Part shown: piece by piece, positions 3,101 to 60,512 of the stretch | How the letters are laid out: each line of letters begins with the position of its first letter | Position numbering within the stretch: the stretch's first letter is position 1 | Virus record (IMG/VR): IMGVR_UViG_3300006789_000016 | Span: 1 to 64,000 of that record | Source of the DNA: a virus | Strand: one strand, 5' to 3' | DNA length: 64,000 nucleotides | Program-made: the position numbers and the translations under genes | Notes under the pieces: model-generated | Told to the model about the DNA's origin: nothing | Seen by the model: the letters and a program-made list of their open reading frames with translations, nothing else | Databases searched by the model: none

Positions 3101-3105
3101 CACAC

Positions 3106-3136: not shown

Positions 3137-3167
3137 ATTCAAAACTACTACACAAGTAGGAGAATAA

Positions 3168-39484: not shown

Positions 39485-39630
39485 ATAACTACAAAAGAAA
39501 GTTTCCGCGTTTAACCTGGGAACAAAAAGAAGCTATTAAAGAATATTTTGCTGACAAAGGCGATGTCATTTCTATATTAAAAGCAATACGAAAGAAGAAG
39601 GAAACAATTCCAGCTGATGAAACTAAGTAA
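39481..39630 (+). CDS. Small basic protein (49 aa)
   Basis: A 49-codon frame whose ATG overlaps the IMPDH-like stop and whose end overlaps the primase-helicase start by 14 nt. Lys/Arg-rich and helical (WEQKEAIKEYFADKGDVISI). The tight two-sided overlap supports it. Function unknown. Confidence 0.6.
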   Translation: MNNYKRKFPRLTWEQKEAIKEYFADKGDVISILKAIRKKKETIPADETK

Positions 39631-42600
39631 AGCTATTACCGAGCTTAAACTCCTCCTCCCTCAATATCTAAAAGATCAAGATATTGTCAGTAGTAAATCA
39701 AAGAAGTTTGCTTGTATCAACCCACACCATAAAGACTCAACTCCAAGTGCCTCTCTCTATCCTGGAAGTGATTACACTGAAGGAAGATGTTTTGGTTGTG
39801 TAACTAACTTTGATATTTTTACTGCAGCTCATTGGTTAGAAGGAATGCCTCAAGAAGGGCCCGAATGGGTCTCTACTACTGTCTCCACACTATGTGAGAG
39901 GTATGATATACCCTTAGAGCTTGAGCCCCTTACAGACGCCCAGAAAGCCTCTAAGGCAGCACTTGCTGCATTTCAAGAAGCAGCTCGTATTCTTACCACA
40001 CATACTGTTTGGTCAAAAGATTGTGAAGAGTATATTAATAAAAACAAATGGAAGAAAGAGGTACTTTTACACAGGGGTGTGGGCTGTCTCTCTAGAGAAA
40101 TTCTAACTTTAGAAATGTCCAAAAAAGGATACAGCGCAGAGTATCTTAGAACATTAGGTTTGCTTGGTGAGCATAATTGTCCTTTCGATGGAGAGCAACT
40201 TGTATTTACTGTGTATAACCACCGTGGGCAAGCCCTTGGCTTCTCCTATCGGACATGGGATGGGAAACAAAAGTATGTTAACCCACACATGTATGGCTAT
40301 GGCACAGAGTCTTTAAAGAAAGGGGAGACACTTTATGGGTTGGATAAAGCGCGCCGGTGCACTGACCAACCACTCATTCTAGTAGAGGGATATACAGATG
40401 TCCTAACTCTTAACCATAAAGGAATCAACAATGTTGCTGCCATTTGTGGAACTGCCCTAACTAAGGAACAGATTCTCCTCTTAGAAAGTGTAGGTTTTCA
40501 TAGTATTGTTTTGGCTCTTGACTGGGATGCAGCTGGCCAGATAGGAATCAGAAGAGCAATAGACTTGCTTATGAAAGAAAGTCAAGATCTTGATATTTCT
40601 ATCATTGGAAAGACCGACAAGACTGAGGGATTAGACCCTTCTGATTTTGTACTCCAACATGGAAAGAAAGGATGGCTAGCATTACCCAATCTAAGTGCCT
40701 TCTCTTGGTTGCTTCAAGATCGTTTGACAGGCCAAACGCCAAAGAGAAAATTAGCCGAAGACATGGTGCGAATTATTGCACTTGAATCTTCTGCAATTAC
40801 AAGAGAAGAATACACTAAGGAATTGGCAAATACAACCGGGGTGTCTATCCATGCTCTTGATATTGAGGTTGGCAAACAACTCAATAAAAGAGAAAGACAA
40901 CGCAATAAGATTGAAAAAAACATAATCGAAAGAATGGCTCTGGACTTAGACAAGTTCCCTGACCATCGCATATCTATCCTTTCTGAAGCAGCTGGCAATA
41001 TTGAAAAAGTCCGTAATGATTATGAGTCTGGCAAATACTCCTCAAGAGGAGTTCTTTCTTTACTCAGAACACAAAAGATTAAAGAGGAGTCAATTGACCC
41101 CTCTGTTGGCCTTGGATTCAAAATGAATCTAATGCCCCAATTAGCTAAATGCTTTGAAGGAGGAAAGGACTGGGCGAGTGACACGCTTATGCTTTTGGGT
41201 GGAGAAGCCAATGCGGGTAAGTCCTCGCTCATGTCCAATATCGCTTTTGATATTGCGCATTCTAACAAAGATGCAACCGTTATCTACTTCTCTATTGATG
41301 ACTCTGGTCGAGACATCTTGCCTAAATTCCTATGTAATGCACATGTCTCTAACTTAGGCAGATTACCCACAAGCAAATTCGAAGAACTATCTATCGGGGC
41401 AATCATTAACCCCGGACGATGGGCCTCTATGCTTCCATCTAAAGGACACAAGGAACGCTTCTTTGACTTTAGGCAACAGGCTTATAACTTAATAGAAAAT
41501 CTTGTAAAAGAAGATAGGTTTCTAATTAAGGATGCTACTGATGGAGCTACTCTTGAATACATGGAAGCCGTTATTCGCTTTCATAGAGGAAAATACCCAA
41601 GTCGTAGAATCTTCTGCGTCTTAGACAATACTCACAACCTTCAAGACTATGGTGGCAAAGACATGAGAGAACGCTTTAGTAAAATTGCAGATACTATGAA
41701 CAATATTTGTAACAAATACAGTGTCTGCATGCTGGCCTCTGTTGAGTATAAGAAAAGAAGTGGTGGAATGCGTGGTGGGAAGTTACTTCCCAAAAATGAA
41801 GATATTGCTGAGTGTATGACAGGAGATTCTCTTGTCTTTACAACTCAAGGGCTAAAAAGAATTGATCAAATTATCCCTGGCAATATTGTTTACACCAAAG
41901 ACGAAAACAATCGAATTGTTACCAACAAGGTGTTGGCTAAACTAGACAAAGGCGTTCAGCAAGTTTATAAGGTCATGCTTAAAGGTGGACGCACTATTAA
42001 AGTTACTGGCAATCACCCATTTTTCACAGAAAAGTATAAATGGAATAAACTTTCAGAATTATCTGTAGGGGATTTTGTTGCTTTGCCTTCTGAGATTCCT
42101 CAACCAAAATCATGCTCTAATCCAATAAATAACGACATTGCTCGTTTACTTGGATACATGGCAGGTGATGGTTGCTATGCCTTAAAAAGTACTCCTCGTT
42201 TTACAAACAGAGATAAGGGCATAATCAAAGATATAAAAACAATAGTACAGGATAGGTTTAAATTAGGAGCTTCTGAAAGACTCCATAATGGTTCTCTTCA
42301 TCTTCGTTTTACTAACGGAAGACAAGGATGTAAGGTCAAAAATCCACTAACAGAATATCTAAAAACTTTGGATATCTGGGGTCAGACGGGTATGGCAAAA
42401 AATATCCCGACTGAACTTTATTCTCAAACCAATGAAGTTATTAGCCATTATATCTCTGGCTTAATTGCCACAGACGGCTCAATAGATACAAAGAAGAAAA
42501 CAATCAGATTCTTTAATAAGAGTAATTATTTAACTCAGGGTTTAATATCTCTTTTAAGTAGACTTGGTATTTATTCCACACTAAATAATGTAAAGAATGG

Positions 42601-43324
42601 TGTTAATGCTGTTTGTATTTCAGGCGATGAAGCAATTAATCTCGCTCAGCTTTTGTTTATTCCTGGTGCAAAAGGAAACAAGTGTAAGCAATTGGCTAGT
42701 CTTTCCAGACTGAATAAAAACAAACATGATCATTTGCCAATTCTGTTTACTGAGCGCCTTAAAGAAATTACAACAAAGGCAAGAATAAATATAAATGACG
42801 GAAGAGAGCTAGGGTTTCAAGTAAGAGACGGTCATAGAGTTACAAGATCTATTGGCTCTAAATTAGCAAGCTCCTTAAAGGACAAAGGATTACAAGCCAT
42901 ACTTAATGAACAGTTAAGGTGGGTGAACATTGTCAAGATTGAAAAACTGGACAAAGAACAAGTCTGGGATTTAACAATTGATGGAACTCATAACTTTATT
43001 GCCAATAATATTATTGTTCATAACACCAGGGCCTTCAATTACCGAGCTAAGTGGATTGGACACATCTATAATGATATGCACGAACGACAGGAAGATTATG
43101 ATACTTTTCATATCGACCCAATGACGAAGAAACCAATGCCTCGCATCCTTTTACTCCACTCAAAAAATAAGATTAATGGTTTTAAAGAGATTACTGTTCA
43201 CGACTTCTTTCCTCACCTTAGTACTTTCAAATGGAAAGATGAAAGTGAGGCCAAACTAGAAGCCAAGAAATATCTAGAAGACCTTAAAGAAGAGGAAGAA
43301 TATGATCAAGACGAAAATTGGTAG
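39617..43324 (+). CDS. Primase-helicase (T7 gp4-like layout) interrupted by an intein
   Basis: 1235-aa precursor; about 831 aa after splicing. A CHC2-type zinc finger (Cys33, His37/38, Cys58, Cys61), a TOPRIM domain (LILVEGYTD about 253-261, ALDWDAAG), and a DnaB-like helicase with Walker A GGEANAGKSS (about 527) are in order. After the Walker B-like FCVLDNTH, the sequence DIAE is followed by the intein (733-1136) and then TRAFNYRAKWIGHIYND, which completes the DnaB H4-type motif. This is the bifunctional enzyme that unwinds DNA and makes primers. The 3' end overlaps the 43302 gene. Confidence 0.93.
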   Translation: MKLSKAITELKLLLPQYLKDQDIVSSKSKKFACINPHHKDSTPSASLYPGSDYTEGRCFGCVTNFDIFTAAHWLEGMPQEGPEWVSTTVSTLCERYDIPLELEPLTDAQKASKAALAAFQEAARILTTHTVWSKDCEEYINKNKWKKEVLLHRGVGCLSREILTLEMSKKGYSAEYLRTLGLLGEHNCPFDGEQLVFTVYNHRGQALGFSYRTWDGKQKYVNPHMYGYGTESLKKGETLYGLDKARRCTDQPLILVEGYTDVLTLNHKGINNVAAICGTALTKEQILLLESVGFHSIVLALDWDAAGQIGIRRAIDLLMKESQDLDISIIGKTDKTEGLDPSDFVLQHGKKGWLALPNLSAFSWLLQDRLTGQTPKRKLAEDMVRIIALESSAITREEYTKELANTTGVSIHALDIEVGKQLNKRERQRNKIEKNIIERMALDLDKFPDHRISILSEAAGNIEKVRNDYESGKYSSRGVLSLLRTQKIKEESIDPSVGLGFKMNLMPQLAKCFEGGKDWASDTLMLLGGEANAGKSSLMSNIAFDIAHSNKDATVIYFSIDDSGRDILPKFLCNAHVSNLGRLPTSKFEELSIGAIINPGRWASMLPSKGHKERFFDFRQQAYNLIENLVKEDRFLIKDATDGATLEYMEAVIRFHRGKYPSRRIFCVLDNTHNLQDYGGKDMRERFSKIADTMNNICNKYSVCMLASVEYKKRSGGMRGGKLLPKNEDIAECMTGDSLVFTTQGLKRIDQIIPGNIVYTKDENNRIVTNKVLAKLDKGVQQVYKVMLKGGRTIKVTGNHPFFTEKYKWNKLSELSVGDFVALPSEIPQPKSCSNPINNDIARLLGYMAGDGCYALKSTPRFTNRDKGIIKDIKTIVQDRFKLGASERLHNGSLHLRFTNGRQGCKVKNPLTEYLKTLDIWGQTGMAKNIPTELYSQTNEVISHYISGLIATDGSIDTKKKTIRFFNKSNYLTQGLISLLSRLGIYSTLNNVKNGVNAVCISGDEAINLAQLLFIPGAKGNKCKQLASLSRLNKNKHDHLPILFTERLKEITTKARININDGRELGFQVRDGHRVTRSIGSKLASSLKDKGLQAILNEQLRWVNIVKIEKLDKEQVWDLTIDGTHNFIANNIIVHNTRAFNYRAKWIGHIYNDMHERQEDYDTFHIDPMTKKPMPRILLLHSKNKINGFKEITVHDFFPHLSTFKWKDESEAKLEAKKYLEDLKEEEEYDQDENW
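41813..43024 (+). mobile_element. Intein with LAGLIDADG endonuclease in the primase-helicase
   Basis: 404 codons. Block A CMTGDSLVFTTQGLKRID, block B VTGNHPFF, two endonuclease blocks RLLGYMAGDG and ISGLIATDGS, and the C-terminal NFIANNIIVHN before an extein Thr, with canonical His-Asn at the end. The insertion lies in a conserved DnaB-type helicase motif. Flanking extein reads DIAE|TRAFNYRAKW when joined. Confidence 0.93.
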
Positions 43325-45543: not shown

Positions 45544-45809
45544 ACACCAACTTTAAAATATCCAATCCTAATCGAAAGGCTCTTCCTAAACATGCTCAAC
45601 CACTAGGGAGGGAGATTTGGCATATCTGTACAATCACTGGTGGTTTGAGAGAGTATGTTCTTCTACAAGACCGTATTAATCCGAAAGATATATGGCTAAA
45701 CGAAGTAGATGGGATTAGCAACGTTAAAGAAATAGAGGACGAGGAACTTTTTAAAGACCTATGGAAGTATTTATATGACTTGGGATTTATCACAGCAACA
45801 GCGATTTGA
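45534..45809 (+). CDS. Hypothetical protein (91 aa)
   Basis: It overlaps the Cas4-like gene by 10 nt and the endonuclease gene by 35. A small alpha/beta protein (LGREIWHICTITGGLREYVLL). No family recognised. Confidence 0.55.
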   Translation: MQINTNFKISNPNRKALPKHAQPLGREIWHICTITGGLREYVLLQDRINPKDIWLNEVDGISNVKEIEDEELFKDLWKYLYDLGFITATAI

Positions 45810-46893
45810 CTTAATAGCAAAAGCGCTAGGTAGCCGAAAATTCGGCAAGATTCTTTCTCTTTACAGCACTATGTCTATTTGCGACCTTGCTGATAAATAC
45901 CTTATTTCTCCGATGGCTGTATATCTTATATATGATATGAGTTTAGAAGCAGACATCCATATGTCTCATTGGACAAGCAAACAAGATAAACTATTAGAAA
46001 ATTCATATCCCTATTACACATCTGCTCTAGAACACTCTCGTGAAGAGGGGCTTCAGCGAGCATTGCAACTGAAATTAATAAGCACAGGGTGGGATGTTCA
46101 AAACCTGAAATATCTAACTCATTATAGAAATAGTAATTATTCTATTAAAACTTGCGCGGCATTTCTCCATAAAAATGTTTCTGATGTGCAAGCAAAAGCA
46201 AAAGAATTAGGGCTTCTTAAAAGATACACCCCAACGAAAATACAACTCTCTAATCTTAAGAAACTTATTGATGCCCAACCCCACTCTCTGAACATTTATG
46301 ACTTAAGTTCTCTAACACAAATTCCCCCAGAAACTATTTCTGCTGTGTGTTTTAATAAAAAATGGACTAATAAATTAGAGAGAACAAACTCAAAAGGATG
46401 TGCTCAACTTAAGCATATCTTGCAAAATATTTACCCAAATACTACCATTATTGAAGAGTATCAAGTCGGCGAAAAGCTGCGTCTAGACCTCTATATCCCT
46501 GATCTTAATATAGGTTTTGAATATGATGGAATTCAGCATTTTGAATTCACTCCAATGTTTCACAATTGTGTAGAAGACTTCTTAGAGGGAGTCCGTAAAG
46601 ACACTCTTAAAGAAAAGCTGTGTACAAAACGTGGTATAACTTTAGTTAGGTTTTCCTACAAAGAAGTTTTAACCAAAGGTACTGTTACCAACAAGATCAA
46701 AGATATTGGTTATGGGACAGGTATAATAGAAGATGCGTCTGTTCTTACTGCTAAAGAAAAGAAAGCACAAGAACAAAACAACTATAAGCACAGTCAGAAA
46801 CAGAAACAAAAAGAATGGAGAAAGAAACAATATGAAAAGCTGCGCGAATTCAAAAAGAAAAAACGAGGTGTCGATGTCTCAAGCTCCAGCTGA
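45775..46893 (+). CDS. Vsr/EDxHD-like endonuclease with HTH-type repeats
   Basis: 372 aa. The first 160 residues hold several HTH-like segments (YSIKTCAAFLHKNVSDVQAKAK and SSLTQIPPETISAV). The nuclease part is RLDLYIPDLNIGFEYDGIQHF, then EGVRKDTLKEKLCTKRGITLVRFSY, the E-x-D..QH..D..K pattern of Vsr/DUF559-type and EDxHD homing enzymes. The tail is very Lys/Arg-rich. A free-standing homing endonuclease is the best guess, inserted between the Cas4-like and ClpP-like genes. Confidence 0.72.
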   Translation: MTWDLSQQQRFDLIAKALGSRKFGKILSLYSTMSICDLADKYLISPMAVYLIYDMSLEADIHMSHWTSKQDKLLENSYPYYTSALEHSREEGLQRALQLKLISTGWDVQNLKYLTHYRNSNYSIKTCAAFLHKNVSDVQAKAKELGLLKRYTPTKIQLSNLKKLIDAQPHSLNIYDLSSLTQIPPETISAVCFNKKWTNKLERTNSKGCAQLKHILQNIYPNTTIIEEYQVGEKLRLDLYIPDLNIGFEYDGIQHFEFTPMFHNCVEDFLEGVRKDTLKEKLCTKRGITLVRFSYKEVLTKGTVTNKIKDIGYGTGIIEDASVLTAKEKKAQEQNNYKHSQKQKQKEWRKKQYEKLREFKKKKRGVDVSSSS

Positions 46894-47440
46894 AGAGCCT
46901 ACCCCTTTAATGTATGATCCATTTTTAGCTGCTCGAACCATTAGAGTTTTTGGTGAAATAGATAGTGACGTAGCCCAAAGTGTCTTTGAACATATTTATA
47001 TATTAGAGGTACTAGACCCCGACGAACCCATTAAGCTTTATATCAACAGCCCAGGAGGAGATGTTTACGCTATGTTCGCGATTGTAGATACAATCAAAAG
47101 TACAACTTGTCCTGTATATACTATCGGATCTGGACAAGTCATGAGTGCTGCAACTTTGATTTTAGCTGCTGGCACTCCTGGCCATCGCTCTCTTTTTCCA
47201 AACACTACCCTAATGCTCCACGAAGCATTTTCTGCTGTTTCAGGGAAGTTAACTGATATCACTATTCATCATAAAGAAACAACTAGATTACAAAAATTAT
47301 ATATAAAACTTCTTGAAAAATACACAGGAACGGCTAAAGCCGATCTGGTGTCTTATATTCTTGGAAGTGATTACTACTTTAGCCCAACACAAGCTTTAAA
47401 GCTTGGTTTGGCTGATAAGATTACAAAGAAATTAATTTAA
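46874..47440 (+). CDS. ClpP-like serine protease, copy 2
   Basis: 188 aa from ATG 46874 with GAGG 5 nt upstream; the longer frame lies inside the endonuclease gene. YINSPGGDVYAMFAIVD, GSGQVMSAATL (Ser91), LMLHEAF (His116) and a C-terminal SDYYFSPTQALKLGLAD (Asp) give the full ClpP triad. Closer to cellular ClpP than copy 1 in its N-terminal FGEIDSDVAQ segment. It may pair with a host Clp ATPase or with copy 1. Confidence 0.88.
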   Translation: MSQAPAEEPTPLMYDPFLAARTIRVFGEIDSDVAQSVFEHIYILEVLDPDEPIKLYINSPGGDVYAMFAIVDTIKSTTCPVYTIGSGQVMSAATLILAAGTPGHRSLFPNTTLMLHEAFSAVSGKLTDITIHHKETTRLQKLYIKLLEKYTGTAKADLVSYILGSDYYFSPTQALKLGLADKITKKLI

Positions 47441-47444
47441 TATT

Positions 47445-47762
47445 ATGTCTGTAGACGATAGGCTTTTGAAAATCCAACATGATGTGGACGAGATAAAAAG
47501 AGTACAGACATACACTACTGCACATCTAGACAATCTTTCAAGAGAATACAATAGAACTTCAGCTGCCTTAGAGAAAATGGCACAGATTCAACAAGACAAA
47601 TCTAATGCTAAAAAAGAGGCTATTAAAGAAATCTGGGCTGTTCTAAAGAAACCATTAACGATCTTTTTGTTAGCATGGGCAACTTCAATGAGTTATCTCT
47701 ACTTTTCAAAAGGAGAAAGCCCTGCCCCTGAGGCAGTAGAGTATCACAACAAGGGGGACTAA
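47445..47762 (+). CDS. Coiled-coil protein with one C-terminal membrane helix (105 aa)
   Basis: A long N-terminal coiled coil (IQHDVDEIKRVQTYTTAHLDNLSREYN) is followed by a membrane helix (PLTIFLLAWATSMSYLYF) and a short tail. The layout recalls XhlA-type lysis accessory proteins but could also be a membrane tether. It lies between ClpP-like copy 2 and the receiver-domain gene, sharing one base with the latter. Confidence 0.58.
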   Translation: MSVDDRLLKIQHDVDEIKRVQTYTTAHLDNLSREYNRTSAALEKMAQIQQDKSNAKKEAIKEIWAVLKKPLTIFLLAWATSMSYLYFSKGESPAPEAVEYHNKGD

Positions 47763-48157
47763 TGTACACTTTTCTTTTAGCAGAAGACTATCACCCTGAT
47801 ATTCTTCTATTTAGAAAAGCCATCAAGGAACTTGGATTGCCTGTTCGTTTGATAGAAGTGCGGAATGGCGAAGAAGCCTGGACTAAATTACAAACAGAGT
47901 CTATAGATTTAATTATCTCAGATTTAAAAATGCCAGAGCTTGGTGGTGTAGACTTATTAAAAAGAATCAATCAAGACTCTAGGCTTAAAATGATTCCATT
48001 TATTATCTTTTCAAATTCAATCAATCCAGAAGATATACAGAAAGCTTATGAGCATTACGCAAATAGCTACTTACAAAAACCAGGCTTGTTTGAAGACTTG
48101 AAAGAACTCCTTGCTAAAGTTCATGACTATTGGTTGAATACAAATGAGAGAATTTAG
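47762..48157 (+). CDS. Single-domain response regulator (CheY-like receiver)
   Basis: 131 aa. Acidic pair Glu8/Asp9 (LLAEDYHPD), phospho-acceptor Asp54 (IISDLKMPELGG), the Ser/Thr strand FIIFSNS and the conserved Lys in SYLQKPG complete a full receiver domain with no output domain. Closest in style to small Rcp1/Spo0F-type receivers. No histidine kinase is present, so it would be phosphorylated by a host kinase or act as a decoy. It shares its last base with the next start. Confidence 0.88.
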   Translation: MYTFLLAEDYHPDILLFRKAIKELGLPVRLIEVRNGEEAWTKLQTESIDLIISDLKMPELGGVDLLKRINQDSRLKMIPFIIFSNSINPEDIQKAYEHYANSYLQKPGLFEDLKELLAKVHDYWLNTNERI

Positions 48158-48951
48158 TGACCAAGAAACAATGCACAAAGTGCAAGGCCACGAAAACCTT
48201 ACGTAGTTTTCATAAAGATGCCAATAAACCAGATGGCTATGCCTCTAACTGTAAACTTTGTCGAAAAAAGCACAAAGAAAAAGCTACAGCAGAAGGCAAT
48301 GCATATCATCAGACACCTATAGCTAGATATAAATCATATCAAAGAGGTGCTAAACAAAGATCTTTAAAATGGGAATTAACAGAAGAGGAATTTCTTCAAT
48401 TCTGGCAAAGACCTTGTTTCTATTGTACGGCACAGATAAGCACAATTGGCCTTGATCGTTTAGATAATAATTTAGGCTACACGATGACAAATGTAGTGCC
48501 ATGCTGCACATCATGCAACTTCTTAAAGGGTCCTCGTGGGGCTGATGATTTTATTTCAAAATGCTTCAAGATTGGACAGAATAAAATTCCTTACAAACTA
48601 TTAACTAGCTTTACTGTTGACTCCAAGCCTATCTCTACAAACAAAGGTTATTTCATAGGAAATAAACGTATGTTTAAAACTAAAGAAGCAGTGCATTGGC
48701 AAGCGGCAATCAAAGAAGCCTGTCCGTATACAGGTGAGGTAATTCAGGGAAAGAAGATTCATGTAGAAATAGACTTCTTCTTTAAAACAACCGCTAGTGA
48801 CGTTGACGGACCCACCAAGTTCACCATGGATGCCCTGGAAAAAATTGTCTACTTCAATGATAAGCAAATTTATTCGGTCAAGCTTACCAAAAACAAAGAT
48901 AAAGATAATCCCCATGCTAAAATTCGAGTATATGAAATCATTGAACTCTAA
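48157..48951 (+). CDS. HNH-type zinc endonuclease fused to RusA-like Holliday junction resolvase
   Basis: 264 aa, GTG start. Residues 1-35 hold a four-Cys zinc finger (CTKCKATKT ... CKLCRKKH). Residues about 85-130 carry an HNH-like module (CFYC ... IGLDRLDNNLGYTMTNVVPCCTSCNFLKG). From about 150 the RusA plan begins (STNKGYFIG, then WQAAIKEAC) and continues with IDFFFKTTASDVDGPTKFTMDALEKIVYFNDKQI, where D-x-D..K...D.L....D are catalytic positions of RusA. One continuous frame with no frameshift. RusA cuts four-way junctions; the HNH part might nick DNA or target the enzyme. Confidence 0.8.
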   Translation: MTKKQCTKCKATKTLRSFHKDANKPDGYASNCKLCRKKHKEKATAEGNAYHQTPIARYKSYQRGAKQRSLKWELTEEEFLQFWQRPCFYCTAQISTIGLDRLDNNLGYTMTNVVPCCTSCNFLKGPRGADDFISKCFKIGQNKIPYKLLTSFTVDSKPISTNKGYFIGNKRMFKTKEAVHWQAAIKEACPYTGEVIQGKKIHVEIDFFFKTTASDVDGPTKFTMDALEKIVYFNDKQIYSVKLTKNKDKDNPHAKIRVYEIIEL

Positions 48952-50696: not shown

Positions 50697-51686
50697 CTAA
50701 GTATAGCATCCTAACTGTAATGCCGTTAAATCGCTGAGATACATTTCTCGAAGAAGATCTCTCCAACTATAGCTAGGAGTCCAATCCAGGATAGCTTCTG
50801 CTTTAGAACCATCGCCTTTAAGATATGGAACATCAGACGGCCGCATGTATCGCTTATCCATCCGATATACATCTTCATATTTGAGTTCTGCAAGTTCACA
50901 AACATACGCTAACATCTCCCTGATTGATACTGATTCACCAGTTGCAATCACAAAATCTTGAGGTTTATCTTCTTGAAGCATTAGGTGCATAGCTCTAACA
51001 TAATCTTTACTATGCCCTATGTCTCTGTATGCATCCATGTTACCCATATCTAGGCGATCTTGCAAGCCTAATTTTACAGAAGCAACACCTTTTGTGATCT
51101 TCCTTGGAGCAAAGTCTAATCCTCGTCTAGGTGACTCATGATTAAAAAGGATACCAGAACAGCAGTGAAGATCGTAGGCTTCACGATAGTTACGAACAGC
51201 ATAAAAGCTAGCAGCTTTAGCAACAGCATAAGGGGACCGGGGGTCGATGGGTGATTCTTCATTGTAGCCAGACTCAGGACATTTCATTCCTCCAAACAAT
51301 TCACTTGTTGCGGCAAAGTAAACCCTGGTCATAGGGCTCTCTTGTCTTACCGCTTCTAGTGCTCCAATAGTGGCCTCTGCGTCCACCCTGAAGGTCTGTA
51401 TTGGCTCTTTGAAGGACTGGCCGACATGGGACATGGCTGCAAGCAAATAAAGCTCTGTGGGCTGTATCTGGCGCATTAGAGACTGCATCTGAGCATGGTC
51501 ACATATATCACCAGGAACTAAATGAAGTTTAGGGTGTTCTTTAATAAGTTTAATATTATTAAAGTTATTCCCTGTGCTCACTCTGCGATATAATCCATAA
51601 ACATCGTAATCTTGTCCAATAAGATACTCTGCAAGATAACTGCCATCCTGGCCCGTCACCCCGGTAATCAACGCACGCTTCTTCAT
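50697..51686 (-). CDS. gmd: GDP-mannose 4,6-dehydratase
   Basis: 329 aa. Rossmann motif TGVTGQDGSYLAE; YGLYRRVSTG; LAAMSHVGQSF; FAATSELFGG; and SPYAVAKAAS (Tyr-xxx-Lys) in the extended SDR order. NHESPRRG and the YRDIGHSKDYVRAM segment are typical of Gmd. The enzyme turns GDP-mannose into GDP-4-keto-6-deoxymannose, precursor of fucose, rhamnose and perosamine. It overlaps the aminotransferase by 4 nt, so GDP-amino-sugar synthesis is plausible. Confidence 0.93.
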   Translation of the reverse strand: MKKRALITGVTGQDGSYLAEYLIGQDYDVYGLYRRVSTGNNFNNIKLIKEHPKLHLVPGDICDHAQMQSLMRQIQPTELYLLAAMSHVGQSFKEPIQTFRVDAEATIGALEAVRQESPMTRVYFAATSELFGGMKCPESGYNEESPIDPRSPYAVAKAASFYAVRNYREAYDLHCCSGILFNHESPRRGLDFAPRKITKGVASVKLGLQDRLDMGNMDAYRDIGHSKDYVRAMHLMLQEDKPQDFVIATGESVSIREMLAYVCELAELKYEDVYRMDKRYMRPSDVPYLKGDGSKAEAILDWTPSYSWRDLLREMYLSDLTALQLGCYT

Positions 51687-52783
51687 TCTGCCTCCACAGA
51701 GTTTACTGCTTCAACAACAAGATTTGCTTGTTCTTTTGTCATACAGGGATGAATTGGAAGAGAGATAAGGCGCTCAGATAGAGCTTCACAAACAGGTGTA
51801 GTTGCCGAACCAAAGAGCCCAGTCTCAGATAATGCCTCAGGATAATGATAGCCAAAAGCAATGTCAGCATTTGTCAAAGCAATTGCCACATGGTCACGAT
51901 GCTTAGGGCTATCACAGCGATATTCATAGAGATGATAAACATGAGTTGATCCTACTTGTTTCCCAGGCGACCGGTGTTCAAATGCATTGTCATATATCTT
52001 CGCCACTTCTTGTCTCTTCTTGTTCCATCCATCTAGAGCCCCCAGAGCATGGAATAACTGAGCTGCCTTGATTGTGTCAAGTCGAGAATTGCCTCCTAGG
52101 ATTTTATGCTCATATTTCTTTTGGGCGCCCTGGTTGATCCAGGTACGAACATAATTAGCAATCTCTGTATTGTCTGTTAAAACAGCTCCACCCTGTCCTA
52201 TAGTACCAAGGTTCTTGGCAGGATAAAAGGATGTTGTGGCGGCATCTGCATAAGCTCCTAGGTGTTGTTTATTAAAAGTTGCTCCCAGTGACTGCGCGCC
52301 ATCTTCTATTAAATAAACTCCATGAGCCCAACACAGATCTTTTAGTTTAGCCATGTCTGGCCTTTGACCATAAAGAGATACAGCGACAACAGCAAGAAAT
52401 TCACCTTTCCTAAAAGCAAGATGATTTCTTACAGAATCTATATTAATTAGATATGTATTCGGATCAACGTCAACAAAGACAGGCTCTAGTCCAGCCTGTA
52501 CAGCAGCGTAGGCAGTTGCAATAAAAGTATTATTTGGCATTAATACTTTTTTTCGCTTAAGACTACCAGGAAGAGAAGAGAACACAATCCGCAAGGCATC
52601 CGTTCCATTTCCTACACCAACTACATGTTTGCATCCAGTATAGTCTTCAAGAGCATTCTCAAAACGTTTAAGATATGATCCTCCAACAAACTGACAAGTA
52701 TGAAGAATATCTAGAACATCTTTATCAATTGCATCCTGTATCTCTTTATACTGTCCGGGTAGATTTACAAAGTTAACTTTCAT
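51683..52783 (-). CDS. DegT/DnrJ/EryC1 sugar aminotransferase
   Basis: 366 aa. VNLPGQYKEIQDAIDKDVLD and VVGVGNGTDALRIVFSSL at the front, LIEDGAQSLGATF with the cofactor Asp, and FYPAKNLGTIGQGGAV containing the PLP Lys. The family transaminates keto-sugar nucleotides. Next to gmd it may make GDP-perosamine or a 3-amino analogue; next to a Gfo/Idh dehydrogenase and acetyltransferases it could also serve a WbpE-like 2,3-diamino route. The exact position of amination cannot be told. Confidence 0.9.
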   Translation of the reverse strand: MKVNFVNLPGQYKEIQDAIDKDVLDILHTCQFVGGSYLKRFENALEDYTGCKHVVGVGNGTDALRIVFSSLPGSLKRKKVLMPNNTFIATAYAAVQAGLEPVFVDVDPNTYLINIDSVRNHLAFRKGEFLAVVAVSLYGQRPDMAKLKDLCWAHGVYLIEDGAQSLGATFNKQHLGAYADAATTSFYPAKNLGTIGQGGAVLTDNTEIANYVRTWINQGAQKKYEHKILGGNSRLDTIKAAQLFHALGALDGWNKKRQEVAKIYDNAFEHRSPGKQVGSTHVYHLYEYRCDSPKHRDHVAIALTNADIAFGYHYPEALSETGLFGSATTPVCEALSERLISLPIHPCMTKEQANLVVEAVNSVEAE

Positions 52784-52798
52784 TTTGATTATAGAATC

Positions 52799-53203
52799 CT
52801 ATTCTCGAAGAAATCCAGTTTTTTGGGTTCTTCCTTTTAGATGTTTATTAAAAAATACCAAGTCTGTTCTGTTCCACTTCTTATAACGTCCATGATTTAC
52901 CAATCTCATCTTCTTTATTACTTTGTCTTGACCGCCATGCTTTTTAATTATATTTTTATTAAGATGGACTATATAGTTTCTTACTAATAGTTTTCCTAAC
53001 CTTTCGTATTCTACAAAAGGAATGCTTCTTTGATATCTGCTCGAAACAAGATCTATCAGTCGTAAAAAACTATGATGTTTTGTAAAGATATATGATTCGC
53101 CTCGCTGACCAACAATTTTTGGATGACTAAAGATTACATTTGCCATGTATGTAGTCCCTGATCGCCCGTGGCCGCCAATAATAATTGGTGCTTTTGGTGG
53201 CAT
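52799..53203 (-). CDS. Short sulfotransferase-like protein (134 aa)
   Basis: ATG at 53203 with AAGGAG 6 nt upstream. GGHGRSGTTYMANVIFSHPKI is the PAPS-binding loop of sulfotransferases. The protein stops at about half the family length, and no C-terminal half follows in another frame before the next gene, so it is either a minimal version or a decayed one. It overlaps the upstream gene's stop (TGATG). Confidence 0.68.
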   Translation of the reverse strand: MPPKAPIIIGGHGRSGTTYMANVIFSHPKIVGQRGESYIFTKHHSFLRLIDLVSSRYQRSIPFVEYERLGKLLVRNYIVHLNKNIIKKHGGQDKVIKKMRLVNHGRYKKWNRTDLVFFNKHLKGRTQKTGFLRE

Positions 53204-54108
53204 CACTTACTCCTTGCTGCTTTTAATACTTGTTCTTTGTGAGCATAATCTCTTTCATTTACAATTCTTATATCACATAATTGTCCAGATTCTGGAAGTA
53301 CCAATACATCTAAAAGATTAAAGTCTTTGTCATATAGATTGATAGCAGAATCTCCACTCTCTCGATCTTCTCTAGATTTGCACTCTGAAACTCCGACGAT
53401 GTAGCAATCTCTTGTGACAGCAAAACCACGTAACCAGGCGCCCTTGCCCAAGAATCTTTCTCTTTGTTTCTTTGTGTTTTGCTCAGTCCATAAAACTCTC
53501 CCATCATGAGAGCTAAAGGTTAAAATCTCACTACCTTCTCTGTAAACATTATGAGCTGCATAGCCAGCTGTAAAGCTATCTACTTCAGTCAAATTCTTGT
53601 CAAGAATAACTATACGGCTTTTACGCTTAAGCTTCTTTTCTGTTCTTGTATTGAAATGAAGTCCAGCAGGACAATAGCCTACTTGGTTATGTTCAACAAC
53701 ATAAAAAAGTTCTTCTTCTTTGTCATACCAAATGGAATTAAAATGATTAAGGTCATTGCCTGTTGGTCGCCAACTAACTGGATCAAAAGCGCCATGCCGA
53801 TATATGTAAAGAGAATTCGTCCCACTGTCTACTACTATTAGACTTCCTTCAAGATGAATCACTTGGTGATGGTGAGTTCCAGGTAAGTCTAATTCGTGTT
53901 TCTTTTTAAAGCTATGGTCCATGACCAAAAGCTTTTCGCTTTTTGTGGCTATTTTATCTTGGTTCTCTCTTGCAACAACATAAAGATTATCTTTATCCCA
54001 AGACATACCATAATAAAGCCCCTGTCCTGTTAAGACAGGAACTATCTGTTTGTCCTGAATATGATAAACAGCTTGAGCCGTTGACACTAAAAAACTAGGC
54101 CACTTCAT
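53203..54108 (-). CDS. Beta-propeller-like protein (301 aa)
   Basis: ATG at 54108 (AGAGG about 10 nt upstream) is preferred to TTG 54117. Repeating blade-like pairs can be seen: GLYYGMSWDKDNLYVVARE, HHHQVIHLEGSLIVVDSGTN, NHFNSIWYDKEEELFYVVEH, LRGFAVTRDCYIVGVSE and CDIRIVNERDYA. This suggests a five- or six-bladed propeller. No catalytic motif recognised. It may bind or process a carbohydrate in the cluster. Confidence 0.68.
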   Translation of the reverse strand: MKWPSFLVSTAQAVYHIQDKQIVPVLTGQGLYYGMSWDKDNLYVVARENQDKIATKSEKLLVMDHSFKKKHELDLPGTHHHQVIHLEGSLIVVDSGTNSLYIYRHGAFDPVSWRPTGNDLNHFNSIWYDKEEELFYVVEHNQVGYCPAGLHFNTRTEKKLKRKSRIVILDKNLTEVDSFTAGYAAHNVYREGSEILTFSSHDGRVLWTEQNTKKQRERFLGKGAWLRGFAVTRDCYIVGVSECKSREDRESGDSAINLYDKDFNLLDVLVLPESGQLCDIRIVNERDYAHKEQVLKAARSK

Positions 54109-54706
54109 CCTTATCAAACCTCTTGTTCACTAGAAGCTTACCTGTTGATTCCATCTCAGAAAGATATTTTTCTACAATATCATCTGTAAAATTGAGATTG
54201 CAGTCAATTCCAATTCTATCTTCCAGCGGTACTTCGCCAACCCTGACTGCTGGACAGCCAAGATAAATGCCACCCTCTTCGCAATCTTTAACCACTACCG
54301 CGCCCGCACCAACGATAACGTCCTTGCCAATAGTAATACCAGACACAAGGGTTACACTGCCACCAATGATAGCACCTGATTTAATGTGAACACCACGAGA
54401 AATTTTCTTTACATTGCGTTGAAAAGAAACATTCTTCTCATGAATAATCATTATGCCAGGACCAATAAAAACTTTGTCTTCTATGACAGTCCCTTGTGTA
54501 ATGCAAGACATTCTTTTGATATGAACATCATTTCCAATCAATACAGTTTCTGAGGTGTTGCAGTAGTCGTCAAATTTTACATTGTTCCCAATGCGAGTTC
54601 CAGAATGAAGCTTACAAAAGTCTCCAATCTTTACATCGTCACCAAGAACAACATCATTGTCGATAACTGTATATTTTCCTGCTCTTGTATTCTTTCCTAT
54701 TTTCAT
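54095..54706 (-). CDS. Left-handed beta-helix acyltransferase, copy 1
   Basis: 203 aa. Hexapeptide repeats ([IV]-G-x-x-x-x) run through the first 160 residues (VVLGDDVKIGDFCKLHSGTRIGNN), ending VIVGAGAVVVKDCEEGGIYLGCPAVRVG. Family members N- or O-acetylate sugar nucleotides. A C-terminal helical extension with a Lys-rich end is unusual. It overlaps the copy-2 gene by 4 nt. Confidence 0.85.
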   Translation of the reverse strand: MKIGKNTRAGKYTVIDNDVVLGDDVKIGDFCKLHSGTRIGNNVKFDDYCNTSETVLIGNDVHIKRMSCITQGTVIEDKVFIGPGIMIIHEKNVSFQRNVKKISRGVHIKSGAIIGGSVTLVSGITIGKDVIVGAGAVVVKDCEEGGIYLGCPAVRVGEVPLEDRIGIDCNLNFTDDIVEKYLSEMESTGKLLVNKRFDKDEVA

Positions 54707-55350
54707 TCAAACACCCACCTTTTAAGCACTGCCGGAACACCAGCAACAAGAGTTCTTGAAGCAACCGACTTAGTGACAACAGCACCAGCTGCTACTATTG
54801 CATTTTCTCCTATTTCAACACCAGGGAGAAGCGAACTGTTTTGTCCAATTCTAGCCCCTTTTTTAATAACAGGGCCAGCACTAGTCCATTCTTTTCCTTG
54901 AGGCGCTAACCTACCCATAGAGTTGTCGTTGGCACACATCGTTCCTTGTCCAATGAAGACACCATCTTCAATAGTCATGTTGCCAGAAATATTGCATAAA
55001 TCCATGATTTTTACTTTGTTGCCAACAGTAGTTTTGAATCCAATTTTTGCATTCATTCCAACAATACAAAATTTACCAAGAACACAATGATCTCGGAGCT
55101 TGGCGCCATCACCGATAAGAGTATTAGCTCCTACATAACAACCATGGTAAATAGTTGCTCCAGCCCCGATTACACAGTTCTCTTCAATATAAGTAGAAGT
55201 TAATTCTGTGCTGGGCTTTCGGCTAGTTGCACCAGAGGGAACTTTCGGCGGCTTTCCAATTACAGCAAAAGGACCGACTGACACGTTCTCACCCATAACA
55301 ACACCTTCATAAATATAACAAGGAATCCCTTTCCATTCTGTTAGTATCAT
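54703..55350 (-). CDS. Left-handed beta-helix acyltransferase, copy 2 (WbpD/FdtC-like)
   Basis: 215 aa. Hexapeptide repeats with VVMGENVSVGPFAVIGKPP, a CVIGAGATIYHGCYVG series and closing GVEIGENAIVAAGAVVTKSV. The SMGRLAPQGKEW loop before the last coils is like the acyl-CoA-binding region of N-acetyltransferases acting on amino sugars, so it is the best candidate to acetylate the product of the 51683 aminotransferase. Confidence 0.85.
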   Translation of the reverse strand: MILTEWKGIPCYIYEGVVMGENVSVGPFAVIGKPPKVPSGATSRKPSTELTSTYIEENCVIGAGATIYHGCYVGANTLIGDGAKLRDHCVLGKFCIVGMNAKIGFKTTVGNKVKIMDLCNISGNMTIEDGVFIGQGTMCANDNSMGRLAPQGKEWTSAGPVIKKGARIGQNSSLLPGVEIGENAIVAAGAVVTKSVASRTLVAGVPAVLKRWVFE

Positions 55351-56207
55351 TAAATTTCTCCATGAGCTTTTAGTACTTCTAATATAAATTCAGCACGTTG
55401 TAGATAGGTGTGGTGGCACAACATATGCTTATAAGCCTTTTGTCCTAACTCTATTAAATCTTTTGGATATCTAGAATAATATTCTAAAGCGGGCTTTAGT
55501 TTAACAGATTCAATATAGTGTTCGTTTGGAGTAAAAAGTTCGCGTAAACCTTTGTGTGGGTATGTCAACACAGAAACTTGGCAACTAAAACTATCAAAAT
55601 ATCTTATTGGAACACCTGGCTTGCCCTCTTTCCAGAGATAATCATTCCAAATACCTATAGAGGCTAAGCTTTTAGATAAATGCCTGAATCTTTCTCTGTG
55701 GTAAAGATGGGGAGGAATGTTTCCCATAAGTTTATACATCCCTCCAATATCTTTCTTTATTTCTCTGTGAAGTACTCCGCGCAATGTGTCTTCTTTGCTT
55801 TTATCCTTAGCAAGGAGAACAAAATCAGATCTTTTTTTAGCGACCATCCATCCTCGCTGTAGACCAGCAAAGGGAAGGTAAAAACTATTTTTGACTTCGC
55901 GACGAGTTGTAAAATAATACTTTATTCCTCGTCGCCCACGAGCTAATTCGTGGCTAGCTTCCTTCTCCCAAAATATACAGATATGTTTTTTCTTTAATTT
56001 CTTTAAAATATTTGTAGGAGGTAATGTCGAAGGACAGGGGAATATAATTAGATCAATATTTCTTGCTTTGAGCCATCTTGATAATTTCTCATAAGGAAGT
56101 CCTAGCACTTCGTTGTGGCAGTGATAAACATTGTGCCCAAGAAGAGTAAAGCCACAACCTAATGCCTTCTCCAAAGGTCTTGTATGGCCAATAAGTATAT
56201 TTAACAT
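55350..56207 (-). CDS. CgeB-like glycosyltransferase (GT-B fold)
   Basis: 285 aa. A short N-terminal Rossmann half (MLNILIGHTRPLEKALGCGF) and a C-terminal part with VPIRYFDSFSCQVSVLTY and LFTPNEHYIESVK, then LGQKAYKHMLCHHTYLQRAEFIL, as in CgeB/Glyco_trans_1_2 proteins. The acceptor and donor are unknown. It overlaps the dehydrogenase gene by 7 nt. Confidence 0.75.
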   Translation of the reverse strand: MLNILIGHTRPLEKALGCGFTLLGHNVYHCHNEVLGLPYEKLSRWLKARNIDLIIFPCPSTLPPTNILKKLKKKHICIFWEKEASHELARGRRGIKYYFTTRREVKNSFYLPFAGLQRGWMVAKKRSDFVLLAKDKSKEDTLRGVLHREIKKDIGGMYKLMGNIPPHLYHRERFRHLSKSLASIGIWNDYLWKEGKPGVPIRYFDSFSCQVSVLTYPHKGLRELFTPNEHYIESVKLKPALEYYSRYPKDLIELGQKAYKHMLCHHTYLQRAEFILEVLKAHGEI

Positions 56208-57130
56208 TTCTTTAATATATCTTCAATATCTCCAACAACCCTCATTCCAAGACTCCCTGGAGAAACAAAAGGTTTATCTAATAAAATCCAATCTGCAAAT
56301 TCATCAACAAGCAAAGCCAATGGCTCTTTAACTTCTCCTTCATAAATAGACATCCAACTATAACGATGGGCCATGTCTCTATCAATACCAACAATGGCTT
56401 TGTCGTAAATAATAAGAGGAGAGTCAGACAACATGTCATACTCAATCATCCCATTAGTTCCGACTACAGTTGTTGTTCTGTCTTTCTTCGGGTTTAACCA
56501 GCTTAAATCTAATCCATAAGTCATCCCAGTTTTGTATTCTATATGGATAGTTGCTGTATCAACAACATCATTCTGTAGATGAGTTCCAGAAACTACAGCC
56601 GAGACTTGAAAGTCAGAACCAAAAAGATAATCCATAACGGCTAAGTCATGTGGTGCTAAATCCCAGATAACTCCAGACAATTGGAACTTACCAAAATTAA
56701 GACGTCTAGAAACTACATGAAGAATATCCCCAATTTTTCCAGCTTGAATTAATTTTCTAAGTTGTCTTATATGTGAACTAAACAAAAATGTATGATCTAC
56801 GCCTAATTTAAGATTCTTTTCAGCGGCCAGCCGGACAAGGGCTTGTGCATCTTTTAGGGTTGTTGTTAGTGGCTTTTCTACAAGGACATGTTTTCCTGCC
56901 AACAAGGCTTCTTTTGCCACACTATAGTGGGTTTCGGGAGGAGTAGCAATAACAACAGCATCGAAGTCTCTCATGGCCAATGCATCTTTTAAAGACTTTT
57001 CTTCCCTCTCTTCTTCGCCTGCTTGCATATCAACCAAAGCAGTCACTTTTATTCTGCTATTTTTTTCTAAATTTCTAAGTAACTTTGGGCCCCAATATCC
57101 TTTATGTCCTACAAGACATATACTTAACAT
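56201..57130 (-). CDS. Gfo/Idh/MocA-family sugar dehydrogenase (WlbA-like)
   Basis: 309 aa. NAD-binding start SICLVGHKGYWGPKLLRNL; DAVVIATPPETHYSVAKEALLAGKHVLVEKPLTTTLKDA is the family signature (EKP with catalytic Lys); WDLAPHDLAVMDYLFG is the second half. In WbpB/WlbA routes such enzymes oxidise C3 of UDP-GlcNAc derivatives so that a DegT enzyme and a WbpD-type acetyltransferase can follow, all three of which are in this cluster. Confidence 0.88.
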   Translation of the reverse strand: MLSICLVGHKGYWGPKLLRNLEKNSRIKVTALVDMQAGEEEREEKSLKDALAMRDFDAVVIATPPETHYSVAKEALLAGKHVLVEKPLTTTLKDAQALVRLAAEKNLKLGVDHTFLFSSHIRQLRKLIQAGKIGDILHVVSRRLNFGKFQLSGVIWDLAPHDLAVMDYLFGSDFQVSAVVSGTHLQNDVVDTATIHIEYKTGMTYGLDLSWLNPKKDRTTTVVGTNGMIEYDMLSDSPLIIYDKAIVGIDRDMAHRYSWMSIYEGEVKEPLALLVDEFADWILLDKPFVSPGSLGMRVVGDIEDILKKC

Positions 57131-57979
57131 TTAAACTCCTAACTTATAGTTTTCGATTATTTTTAAATAAGCTTTAGCCATTTTGAATGCCGACCATTTT
57201 TTATAGACTAACTCTAAACATTTATTAGAGCAGTAAGTATAAAAATCTTTATCTGTACTCAGTTCTTCTAAACAAACAACAGCGTCTTCTATTTTCTTGA
57301 AAGCAAGACTATTGAGTATAGGATGAAGAGAAATTAACTTTTTGTTTCTGGGATGAAGTAGTGTTACTACAGGCAAACCACAAGCCATGGCTTCTTTTGG
57401 AGCTAAACCAAGAGAGTAGCTTAGAACAAATACTTTGCTTTTCCAATAAAAATTCCTCACTCCATCTTTCTCTACTGCGGGTATATCATACCCTACCAAA
57501 GGAATTTCCTTAAATTTTTGCATTTCTTTTAAAAGATCAATTCTCTTTTGGTCATAGCGTGCTTTGTTCCAAATATCAGCACAAGAAATAAACCCAAATC
57601 TCGAAGTCACCGAAGGTCTCCAAAAGTTTAGATCTATACCATTGGGAATGTGATGGATACCTTTTTTGGGCTGACAAAGCATACCACCCTCAAGGGATGA
57701 ACGCTCATCAACAATGATAATTGGTCGATGAGTTGTAGGCAATCGATGATCAAGAGACCATCGGTTATGATCAATTAACAAAACATTTTGCAGATCAATT
57801 AACTTTCCTGCCTCTACAAAAGTAATAGAAGCAATGATTAAGTCATAAGGAGAGAGGTCTAAATCAAAATCTTTCGGAGTGGCAGGGTTGACAGTTATGT
57901 CCATTAGTCCAAGAGAATAAAAACCTTTAGCTAAATAATCACCCCAGGTGGGATGATGCGGAAGAATCAATATATTCAT
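57131..57979 (-). CDS. Glycosyltransferase, GT4-like
   Basis: 282 aa. IHHIPNGIDLNFWRP and LGLAPKEAMACGLPVVTLL are the C-terminal GT4 hallmarks (E-x7-E region), and IIIVDERSSLEGG lies at the domain junction. It is shorter than typical GT4 (about 350 aa) with a reduced N-domain. It abuts the dehydrogenase gene and overlaps the GT2-like gene by 4 nt. Confidence 0.82.
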   Translation of the reverse strand: MNILILPHHPTWGDYLAKGFYSLGLMDITVNPATPKDFDLDLSPYDLIIASITFVEAGKLIDLQNVLLIDHNRWSLDHRLPTTHRPIIIVDERSSLEGGMLCQPKKGIHHIPNGIDLNFWRPSVTSRFGFISCADIWNKARYDQKRIDLLKEMQKFKEIPLVGYDIPAVEKDGVRNFYWKSKVFVLSYSLGLAPKEAMACGLPVVTLLHPRNKKLISLHPILNSLAFKKIEDAVVCLEELSTDKDFYTYCSNKCLELVYKKWSAFKMAKAYLKIIENYKLGV

Positions 57980-58788
57980 ACATTAAACTTCCACTTCTTT
58001 TTTCTTTTAATCCAAGAAACGATAACCTTTGGGTGAGATCCTGCAAAAGTCTGTGTTTTAAGACTACCTGGATTATAGACAAAACTTGACTGAATGTATC
58101 TTTTATTGCGAAAAGAACGATAGTTCGCATTCTCTACAGCAAACTGTTTCTTTAGTTTTTTCCCCATAGCTTCCGCGTCTCTGCACCAACCGTAATGGTT
58201 TACAAAAGCAGATACTTTTTGTACATCGGCGCGAGCATAAAACTTTTCTGTATTGATATCAATATTATCAACACCAACAGCTACATGAGAACAGCCAGGC
58301 CTAGCAATAAACCTTACTTTTTGATTTCGACGAGTAAGCTTTGAACGCTCTTGATACCATTTAGTGTCTATCACTTGTTTTTGTGCTTTCACCCCAAAGA
58401 AATGCCTAAACTTAAATACAAAATAATTTTTATCTCTTCTTTTACTTATCTCTATTATCTTTTTTGCTGTCTTTGAGGGCACTACTTCGTCAGCATCTGC
58501 TCTCCAAATCCATTCGCTTGTACAGGCCCGCAAAATCCGAGTTCTTAGTTTAGATTCAGTAGAGCGGTTTAACGCCCAAGGATGCCGCAAAATAACAAAT
58601 CGTCCATTTGGCTGAACTTGATAAAACTCTTCTTGAAGATCTAACAACAACTCTAATGTATTATCAATAGAGTGTGCTTCCAAAATGACTATCTCATTAG
58701 AAAAAGCAAAAAGAGATCGTATAGCTGCTTGCATTGGATAGTCAAGAATCTCCACATCCCTAACCCACATTACTGAACTAACAGACAT
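57976..58788 (-). CDS. Glycosyltransferase, GT2-like
   Basis: 270 aa. The GT-A core includes SNEIVILEAHSIDNTLEL and the metal/nucleotide site WIWRADADEVV (DxD), followed by a basic C-terminal half with several aromatic residues. It is an inverting-type family by pattern. The last residues are very basic (SWIKRKKKWKFNV). Confidence 0.78.
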   Translation of the reverse strand: MSVSSVMWVRDVEILDYPMQAAIRSLFAFSNEIVILEAHSIDNTLELLLDLQEEFYQVQPNGRFVILRHPWALNRSTESKLRTRILRACTSEWIWRADADEVVPSKTAKKIIEISKRRDKNYFVFKFRHFFGVKAQKQVIDTKWYQERSKLTRRNQKVRFIARPGCSHVAVGVDNIDINTEKFYARADVQKVSAFVNHYGWCRDAEAMGKKLKKQFAVENANYRSFRNKRYIQSSFVYNPGSLKTQTFAGSHPKVIVSWIKRKKKWKFNV

Positions 58789-58794
58789 AAGTGA

Positions 58795-59133
58795 TTACTT
58801 TACTTCAAATTCAGCATCAACCTTGTCATACCAAGTCACTCCTTCACGAACTAAACCAAATCTTATTTCGTATTTTCCTGACAATAAAGAAAGATCAGCT
58901 GCTTCAAAAGAAGTGCGATAAACCACTGTTTCTCCAGCAGGAACAGTATCTGCCCTAACTAGCCCTACCCTATAAGGTATCTTTATTTCCTTGTCTCCAA
59001 CAAGATGTCTTATACGACAAGGCCTAATCAGTAATTTACTTTTGCTCTGATCTTGACCAGTAGTATTGTCTAGCTCAAGAATAAAGAAGAATTTATTCTT
59101 TCGACGATAAGCTTTGATTACTTTGAGTTTCAT
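58795..59133 (-). CDS. Small beta-sandwich protein (112 aa), carbohydrate-module-like
   Basis: KYEIRFGLVREGVTWYD near the end, with paired strands (IRHLVGDKEIKIPYRVGLVR, GETVVYRTSFEAADL), resembles the Ig-like modules that accompany polysaccharide transport or glycosyltransferase proteins (PG.Y.L.F.LV.EGV.WF). It could bind glycan. It sits between two GT genes. Confidence 0.62.
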   Translation of the reverse strand: MKLKVIKAYRRKNKFFFILELDNTTGQDQSKSKLLIRPCRIRHLVGDKEIKIPYRVGLVRADTVPAGETVVYRTSFEAADLSLLSGKYEIRFGLVREGVTWYDKVDAEFEVK

Positions 59134-60512
59134 AAGTCCATAACCTCGATAAGCCTCTTGGCAGAAAGATCATAATTCTCATTCTTCCTAACCCATTGAG
59201 CGGCTTTCTTTCCTTTTTTAAATGCCTCTCTTTTGTGAGAGACAATATGACGCATTTGTTCTACTAAATCATCAGTATTAATTTTAGCATACTGACCAAA
59301 ATCATCTGATCCATTATTGTGTGATCTTAAGAATTTAGGCAAGTCAGCTCGTTGTAAGCCACTTGGATTCACCCAATAAGCGATATCATCCTTGCATATT
59401 TCTGTAAGAGAAGACCAGTTACAAAGAATAACGGGGAGTCCCGTGCACATAGCCTCTCGTGGAGGTAGGCCATAGCCCTCTCCGTTAGAGGGAAATAGGA
59501 AACAGTCGGCCCGGTGCATTAGACTCACCAATTCTTTATGCGGCAACCTTGCATCTATAACCTCAACATTGCTTGGCAAGTTAGGCTTGTTTCCTCCCCA
59601 CCCTCCGCTGATTTTTAAAATAAGCTTCACATCTGTTCTATTCCCAAAAGCTCTTTTGAATGCTGCCAACGTCAGAGGGTAGTTCTTCCTAGAGTTAGAC
59701 CAATGCGCATTAGCTAGCAAGAGAAACTCAAAGGGTTTATCTCTCTTTGCTCTATTCTCACACATAGGCCATATCTTATGATTTACCCCCAAGGGAACTT
59801 TGTGGATAGGAACTTTTACCCCTGCGTCTTTGAAAATCTTTTTACAAAAGTCAGAAGGAACAATAAGGTGATTAAACTTATTGTTAATTCTACCGGCCCA
59901 GGCGCTAGGAACCTTTGTCGTTTCGAACATTGTGAGAATATATTTCTCTGCTCTTTGACATTTTCCATGCGTCCTGGTTATAGCTGGAGTATGATATAAA
60001 AGATATTTCTTGTAAAGGAAGTTTCTTTCATTAACCAACTCATGGAATTTTGCACTAGCTAAATGATTGTTATTCCTACGTGTAGGGACAAATGACATAG
60101 AGATATGTGCACGATCCAGAGCGAGAACTAATTGCTCTGTACTATTTCCATAACCATCACAAGGGTCGAACACTCCTTCAAATACCAATCCTTTCTCCAG
60201 AGGAGCTACAGATTGATCCATAAAGGCGTGGCCTAGTTCTTTACACAAAGCCGTATAGACATCCTCTACATCTTTTCCATTCTTCAAGCATCTTGAATAG
60301 TCAATTACATATCCAAAACGTTGTCTTTTGAATCCCATAAGAGGGATAATCCCTATCCCAGGATATTTTTGAGGTAAGCCCGGTGCTGGGTTGGCGAGAG
60401 CAAAATGCCAACTATACCTAGAGGTTTCCTCTTTTATCTTGTTAATAGCTGCAAAATAAATTTTATATAGTTCTGGGTTTTGTTTAGGAAATTGAATAAC
60501 TACTTTTTTCAT
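59130..60512 (-). CDS. Glycosyltransferase, GT4 family
   Basis: 460 aa. HKVPLGVNHKIWP, FEFLLLANAHWSNSRKNYPLTLAAF, ADCFLFPSNGEGYGLPPREAMCTGLPVI and a terminal amphipathic helix make a complete GT4 C-domain. The N-domain is long and includes FEGVFDPCDGYGNSTEQLV. Retaining-type transferase by family. It overlaps both neighbours by 4 nt. Confidence 0.88.
   Translation of the reverse strand: MKKVVIQFPKQNPELYKIYFAAINKIKEETSRYSWHFALANPAPGLPQKYPGIGIIPLMGFKRQRFGYVIDYSRCLKNGKDVEDVYTALCKELGHAFMDQSVAPLEKGLVFEGVFDPCDGYGNSTEQLVLALDRAHISMSFVPTRRNNNHLASAKFHELVNERNFLYKKYLLYHTPAITRTHGKCQRAEKYILTMFETTKVPSAWAGRINNKFNHLIVPSDFCKKIFKDAGVKVPIHKVPLGVNHKIWPMCENRAKRDKPFEFLLLANAHWSNSRKNYPLTLAAFKRAFGNRTDVKLILKISGGWGGNKPNLPSNVEVIDARLPHKELVSLMHRADCFLFPSNGEGYGLPPREAMCTGLPVILCNWSSLTEICKDDIAYWVNPSGLQRADLPKFLRSHNNGSDDFGQYAKINTDDLVEQMRHIVSHKREAFKKGKKAAQWVRKNENYDLSAKRLIEVMDL

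Follow-up and report, generated by a model that had tools for sequence, protein, structure and literature searches.

The gene described here is a genuine and well-constructed fusion between two enzymes of known kinds, a PacI-type HNH nuclease and a RusA-type Holliday-junction resolvase, and in the data that we searched it is restricted to one virus. It lies within a 64,000-nucleotide stretch of viral DNA (the window), its product is probably a bifunctional recombination nuclease as predicted from both halves, and the joining of a PacI-type HNH module to RusA is a new form of a recurring HNH-RusA partnership. A first-pass annotation had read this locus as two nucleases fused in one uninterrupted frame, and we found that both parts of that reading hold: the frame lies exactly where it was placed (Table 1), and each half is matched by profiles as well as by its predicted fold. 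Chance matching of either half is ruled out, and the join is real.

Table 1. Features of the fusion gene and of the surrounding phage DNA (positions in the window).
Feature	Position	Strand	Basis or remark
Ribonucleotide reductase	16982-19390
RecA	20264-21310
Bacterial-type Pol III alpha with PHP domain	23493-26804
Stand-alone response-regulator receiver domain	47762-48157		PF00072, 5.9e-19; one-base overlap with fusion gene
HNH-RusA fusion ORF	48157-48951	+	264 aa, GTG start, TAA stop, no internal stop
N-terminal Cys4 zinc finger, C6-x2-C9 ... C32-x2-C35	48172-48261	+	Sequence; alignment
PacI-type HNH (beta-beta-alpha metal) catalytic module	48415-48528	+	Profiles, fold, alignment
In-frame stretch without ATG, GTG or TTG	48499-48669	+	Codon 114 (GTG) to codon 172 (ATG)
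Short linker, residues 142-145	48580-48591	+	Secondary structure of the two half models
RusA-type Holliday-junction resolvase domain	48592-48948	+	Pfam, PHROG, alignments, fold

Residues 1-142 of the protein comprise the zinc finger and the HNH nuclease and residues 146-264 the RusA-type domain, and in the predicted models the HNH half closes with a helix that stops at residue 141, while the first strand of RusA runs from residue 146. The halves were folded one by one, because full-length alignments misplaced half-length RusA rows onto the HNH half. At its 5' end the gene begins with a GTG that overlaps the TAG stop of the response-regulator gene upstream (TAGTG). GC content is nearly equal in the two halves (0.38 for HNH and 0.37 for RusA), and nothing therefore points to foreign DNA having been inserted very recently. 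The first-pass annotation had allowed that a sequencing error might have joined two separate genes, and such an artefact, whether of sequencing or assembly, now appears highly improbable. It would fit a fusion that occurs in one virus only, and the second assembly described here may share the same or related samples with the first. However, besides the source record (a virus contig of 74,561 bases) an identical fusion protein is encoded by a second IMG/VR contig of 151,482 bases, and the DNA common to both assemblies carries one mismatch in 6,792 bp and one in 22,250 bp. Moreover, no canonical start codon is available for the RusA half alone, as the in-frame starts that flank the junction are the GTG at codon 114, inside the HNH motif, and the ATG at codon 172, beyond the conserved RusA Asn, so that separate translation of RusA would require a rare start. 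It is the combination of the same frame in two assemblies with the missing start that makes a sequencing join unlikely.

The N-terminal four-Cys finger proposed for the protein is present (C6/C9/C32/C35), with C6, C9 and C32 invariant among 10 aligned sequences, and the HNH module has its own Cys4 zinc site formed by C87, C90, C117 and C120, likewise invariant in the alignment. PHROG 1035, named ‘endonuclease VII’, matches residues 1-142 (2.1e-28), and when the window protein and 10 relatives were made into a profile of the HNH half (11 sequences), PacI ranked top of the solved structures (4.6e-8). PacI is also the sole PDB match below 0.001 for the predicted fold (pLDDT 93; E=2.3e-6), with a TM of 0.50 and a high rmsd; as this TM is moderate and the rmsd high, the placement of the finger relative to the catalytic module may differ from that in PacI. 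In place of the usual catalytic first His, the residue of canonical HNH enzymes, we observe Arg101, and in fact Arg occupies this position in 75 of 75 readable IMG/VR relatives, 72 of which also have the Tyr. The catalytic site of PacI itself is H42-R93-Y100-N113 (PMC3765158), with the Tyr proposed as general base (PMC4081073). Similar to R.PacI (PDB 3ldy/3m7k), the HNH half has Arg for His together with the conserved Tyr and Asn, although R.PacI is a stand-alone restriction enzyme and its H42 is not retained in the window protein. Because the Arg, Tyr and Asn match PacI catalytic residues, the module looks intact as a PacI-type nuclease rather than decayed, and on residues and model we assign the HNH half to the PacI type, with an Arg/Tyr/Asn site in place of the catalytic His. 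Of the ‘HNH-like module’ in the first-pass annotation the nuclease stands, while the HNH label gives way to PacI-type; the His mutants suggested there would test nothing, since the position is already Arg in the window protein and its relatives, as in PacI.

It has to be considered whether the HNH half lacks cutting activity and only binds DNA, as an extension by which RusA is targeted or strengthened. The finger and helix would make an obvious DNA-binding unit for this, and the absent catalytic His would agree with it. We consider this improbable, however, as that absence is family-wide and matches an active enzyme in which Tyr is the proposed base, and as D100, R101, Y108 and N121 of the active site are all retained.

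T4 Endo VII was rejected as a parent of the HNH half: its D40, H41, H43, R54 and N62 set (DHHRN) is not matched, DRLD stands in place of DHDH, and Pfam Endonuclease_7 (PF02945) gave no match to the fusion protein at E 1. The phage relatives in PHROG 1035 share the finger and the GxDR...GY...CN layout with the HNH half but differ in that the RusA half is absent from all that were examined, and by sequence the name ‘endonuclease VII’ is not supported for this family, since it lacks the D-H-D-H of T4 Endo VII. F-CphI, a homing endonuclease with an Endo VII motif (PMC6083498), is similar in that it, too, is a phage nuclease with the HNH fold and has ties to a resolvase fold, although it has the DHHRN residues (PMC6083498) where the window module has Arg and Tyr. 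A separate observation is that loci L113 and L114 encode (at 1967-3406) a protein of 479 aa in which two or more PacI-type HNH modules follow one another.

The RusA half is equally well defined, and the claim of a complete RusA-like domain with its Asp/Lys pattern is borne out. Pfam RusA (PF05866) matches it at 36.1 bits (1.1e-8), well above the cut-off of 22.8, PHROG 11573 matches at 5.9e-15, and E. coli RusA is recovered by a profile made from 16 sequences (1.4e-4). The invariant set is D215/D217/K221/D225/D235, of which D215, D217, K221 and D235 align with the conserved set of 15-21 relatives and of 1q8r. These four correspond to D70, D72, K76 and D91, which we take to be the catalytic residues of E. 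coli RusA, in agreement with the D70N crystal entries. Structure prediction, which had been suggested for both halves, gave PacI as the best PDB match of the HNH half and E. coli RusA as that of the RusA half (pLDDT 88, E=1.7e-6, TM 0.73), with RusA entries at all of places 1-7 (TM up to 0.73-0.74). E. coli RusA (PDB 1q8r, 2h8c, 2h8e) thus shares with the RusA half its Pfam family, fold and Asp/Asp/Lys/Asp set, but is a stand-alone protein of ~120 aa with ~17% identity to the window domain, and the motif D-x-D-N-x-x-K reads DVDGPTK in the window protein. The Pfam scan of the fusion protein at E 1 returned RusA only, with no PF06147 (DUF968).

A search for the same fusion in other phages, as had been proposed, found it in this single virus only. 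By whole-protein tblastn against phages and plasmids, 0 of 105 phage records and no plasmid record covered 80% of the query. RusA relatives read in 80 IMG/VR loci were all stand-alone proteins of ~110 aa, the HNH relatives in another 80 IMG/VR loci all lacked a RusA tail, and with both profiles run over all fetched loci only the source virus had both in one frame, with no case of a PacI-type HNH gene adjoining a separate RusA gene. A RusA search of 21 records comprising other HNH relatives and the virus's other contigs, several of which are short fragments, gave 0 matches. We also scanned DNA for a joined pattern of the HNH end, the RusA Asn and the RusA Asp/Asp/Lys in order, with spacing fixed within about five residues each side, and it occurred only in the source virus in IMG/VR and, for one of two codon variants, in none of the GTDB genomes; because of that fixed spacing, looser fusions could escape the scan. 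A Helicobacter prophage RusA, used as query and aligned with the window RusA, led to no further fused relative. The six-sequence RusA alignment A1 was too divergent for a scan of the collection. The first-pass annotation would have been undermined by homologues that always occur separately with the fusion confined to one assembly, and here the homologues do occur apart, while the fusion is found in two assemblies, yet of one virus.

HNH-fold nucleases nevertheless recur beside RusA in other phages. In 44 genes that immediately precede a stand-alone RusA relative, Pfam identified DUF968 in 9, a RecA-dependent nuclease (Ref) in 4, YbcO in 3, and NUMOD4-HNH_3 and HNHc_6 in 1 each. Provided that none of these proteins was counted more than once, an HNH-fold nuclease precedes RusA in up to 18 of the 44 cases, whereas among 25 genes directly downstream HNH, NinG and HNH_5 add up to no more than 4, a contrast that is suggestive but no proper test because related loci are not independent. 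The upstream nucleases in the RusA loci (L025-L104) are of several unrelated kinds (DUF968, Ref-like, YbcO, NUMOD4-HNH), and in BA3 and a Rhodobacteraceae phage the HNH and RusA genes form pairs with a one-base overlap. One candidate PacI-like HNH upstream of RusA, at L036, proved unrelated in sequence. To our knowledge there is no accepted reason for this recurrence of HNH-fold nucleases upstream of phage RusA. A paper that cites CDD mentions DUF968 joined to RusA (PMC4118853), and such fusions and the adjacent phage HNH/RusA pairs likewise have an HNH-fold nuclease upstream of or fused to RusA, although their partners are NUMOD4-type, DUF968, YbcO or Ref-like where that in the window is PacI-type.

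In the 151-kb record a profile search matched RusA once and RuvC not at all, making the RusA of the fusion the phage's only detected resolvase; searches for Endonuclease_7 and phage endonuclease I matched no control genome and are uninformative on absence. RecA (2.2e-107), Pol III alpha and a primase-helicase are all encoded by the phage itself. The primase-helicase gene (39617-43324) contains an intein (Intein_splicing 2.4e-23) with a LAGLIDADG domain, and an intein-like insert (1.1e-6, below the Pfam cut-off) is present in a metallophosphoesterase gene (26801-28885). About 1.3 kb upstream of the fusion an ORF of 372 aa (45775-46893) matches PHROG homing/HNH endonuclease families (6e-16), with a C-terminal part that resembles a Vsr/EDxHD-type nuclease.

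We tentatively favor, at close to an even chance, the view that this large tailed phage encodes a recombination enzyme with two nucleases, which arose from a mobile HNH gene joined to rusA and acts as one unit. By this account a mobile PacI-type phage HNH gene would have landed directly upstream of rusA, a position often taken elsewhere by other HNH-fold nucleases, and the two genes would then have fused; such a capture agrees with the way in which members of the HNH family stand alone at scattered sites. E. coli RusA dimerises, and the RusA half would bind four-way junctions and make paired nicks, acting as resolvase in a phage that also brings a RecA of its own, while the HNH half, held near, might bind or nick duplex arms or branched intermediates so that the pair forms one unit. 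Support comes from the two active sites, both complete and matching solved enzymes in profile and fold. It comes also from the missing start codon for RusA alone, from the one RusA match without RuvC in the 151-kb record, from the phage's RecA and replication genes, and from the HNH/RusA neighbours seen in other phages and the DUF968-RusA fusions mentioned in PMC4118853. Against it, the HNH kinds found beside RusA elsewhere are not PacI-type, a PacI-type HNH adjoining a separate RusA gene was not found in the fetched loci, and because the fusion occurs in one virus only there is no conserved fused lineage showing selection for it. A more specific version, in which two unrelated active sites on one polypeptide work co-ordinately, RusA nicking the junction and HNH cutting an arm or D-loop, we regard as rather unlikely.

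The main competing possibility, which we hold to be plausible but somewhat doubtful, is that the HNH half is still a selfish homing endonuclease that entered rusA in frame at its 5' end and cuts the HNH-free allele in co-infecting phages, with RusA merely tolerating it. The PacI-type HNH relatives are mostly stand-alone, lying beside genes for DNA polymerase, tail fibre and holin, capsid or terminase and without a RusA tail in the 80 loci noted above, and the genome carries the two intein-bearing genes and the homing-endonuclease-like ORF; moreover, F-CphI and ShiLan are examples of HNH-fold homing nucleases in phages. However, no HNH-free allele of the locus was found, the virus's other contigs ending before it, and the fused records are essentially identical to one another. 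Weighing these observations, and with both routes of the first-pass annotation still plausible, we lean towards the recombination enzyme, and think that the fusion protein likely resolves junctions for the phage and carries in addition a PacI-type nuclease, probably active and of mobile-HNH origin, as judged from its sequence and models.

As a natural fusion, the protein offers a ready tool for asking whether both nucleases act on the same recombination intermediate and, if true, co-ordinated cutting would make explicit an HNH-RusA co-operation that many phages encode as neighbouring genes. That the large phage HNH group labelled ‘endonuclease VII’ is PacI-like, with an Arg/Tyr/Asn site, also points to other residues to mutate and another expected activity. 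PADLOC returned nothing but a negligible pAgo match. Elsewhere in the window, two separate ClpP-like proteases are encoded (46733-47440 and 36989-37552), and translations read by eye suggest a cluster of sugar-nucleotide, aminotransferase, acyltransferase and glycosyltransferase genes on the minus strand at 50697-62542.
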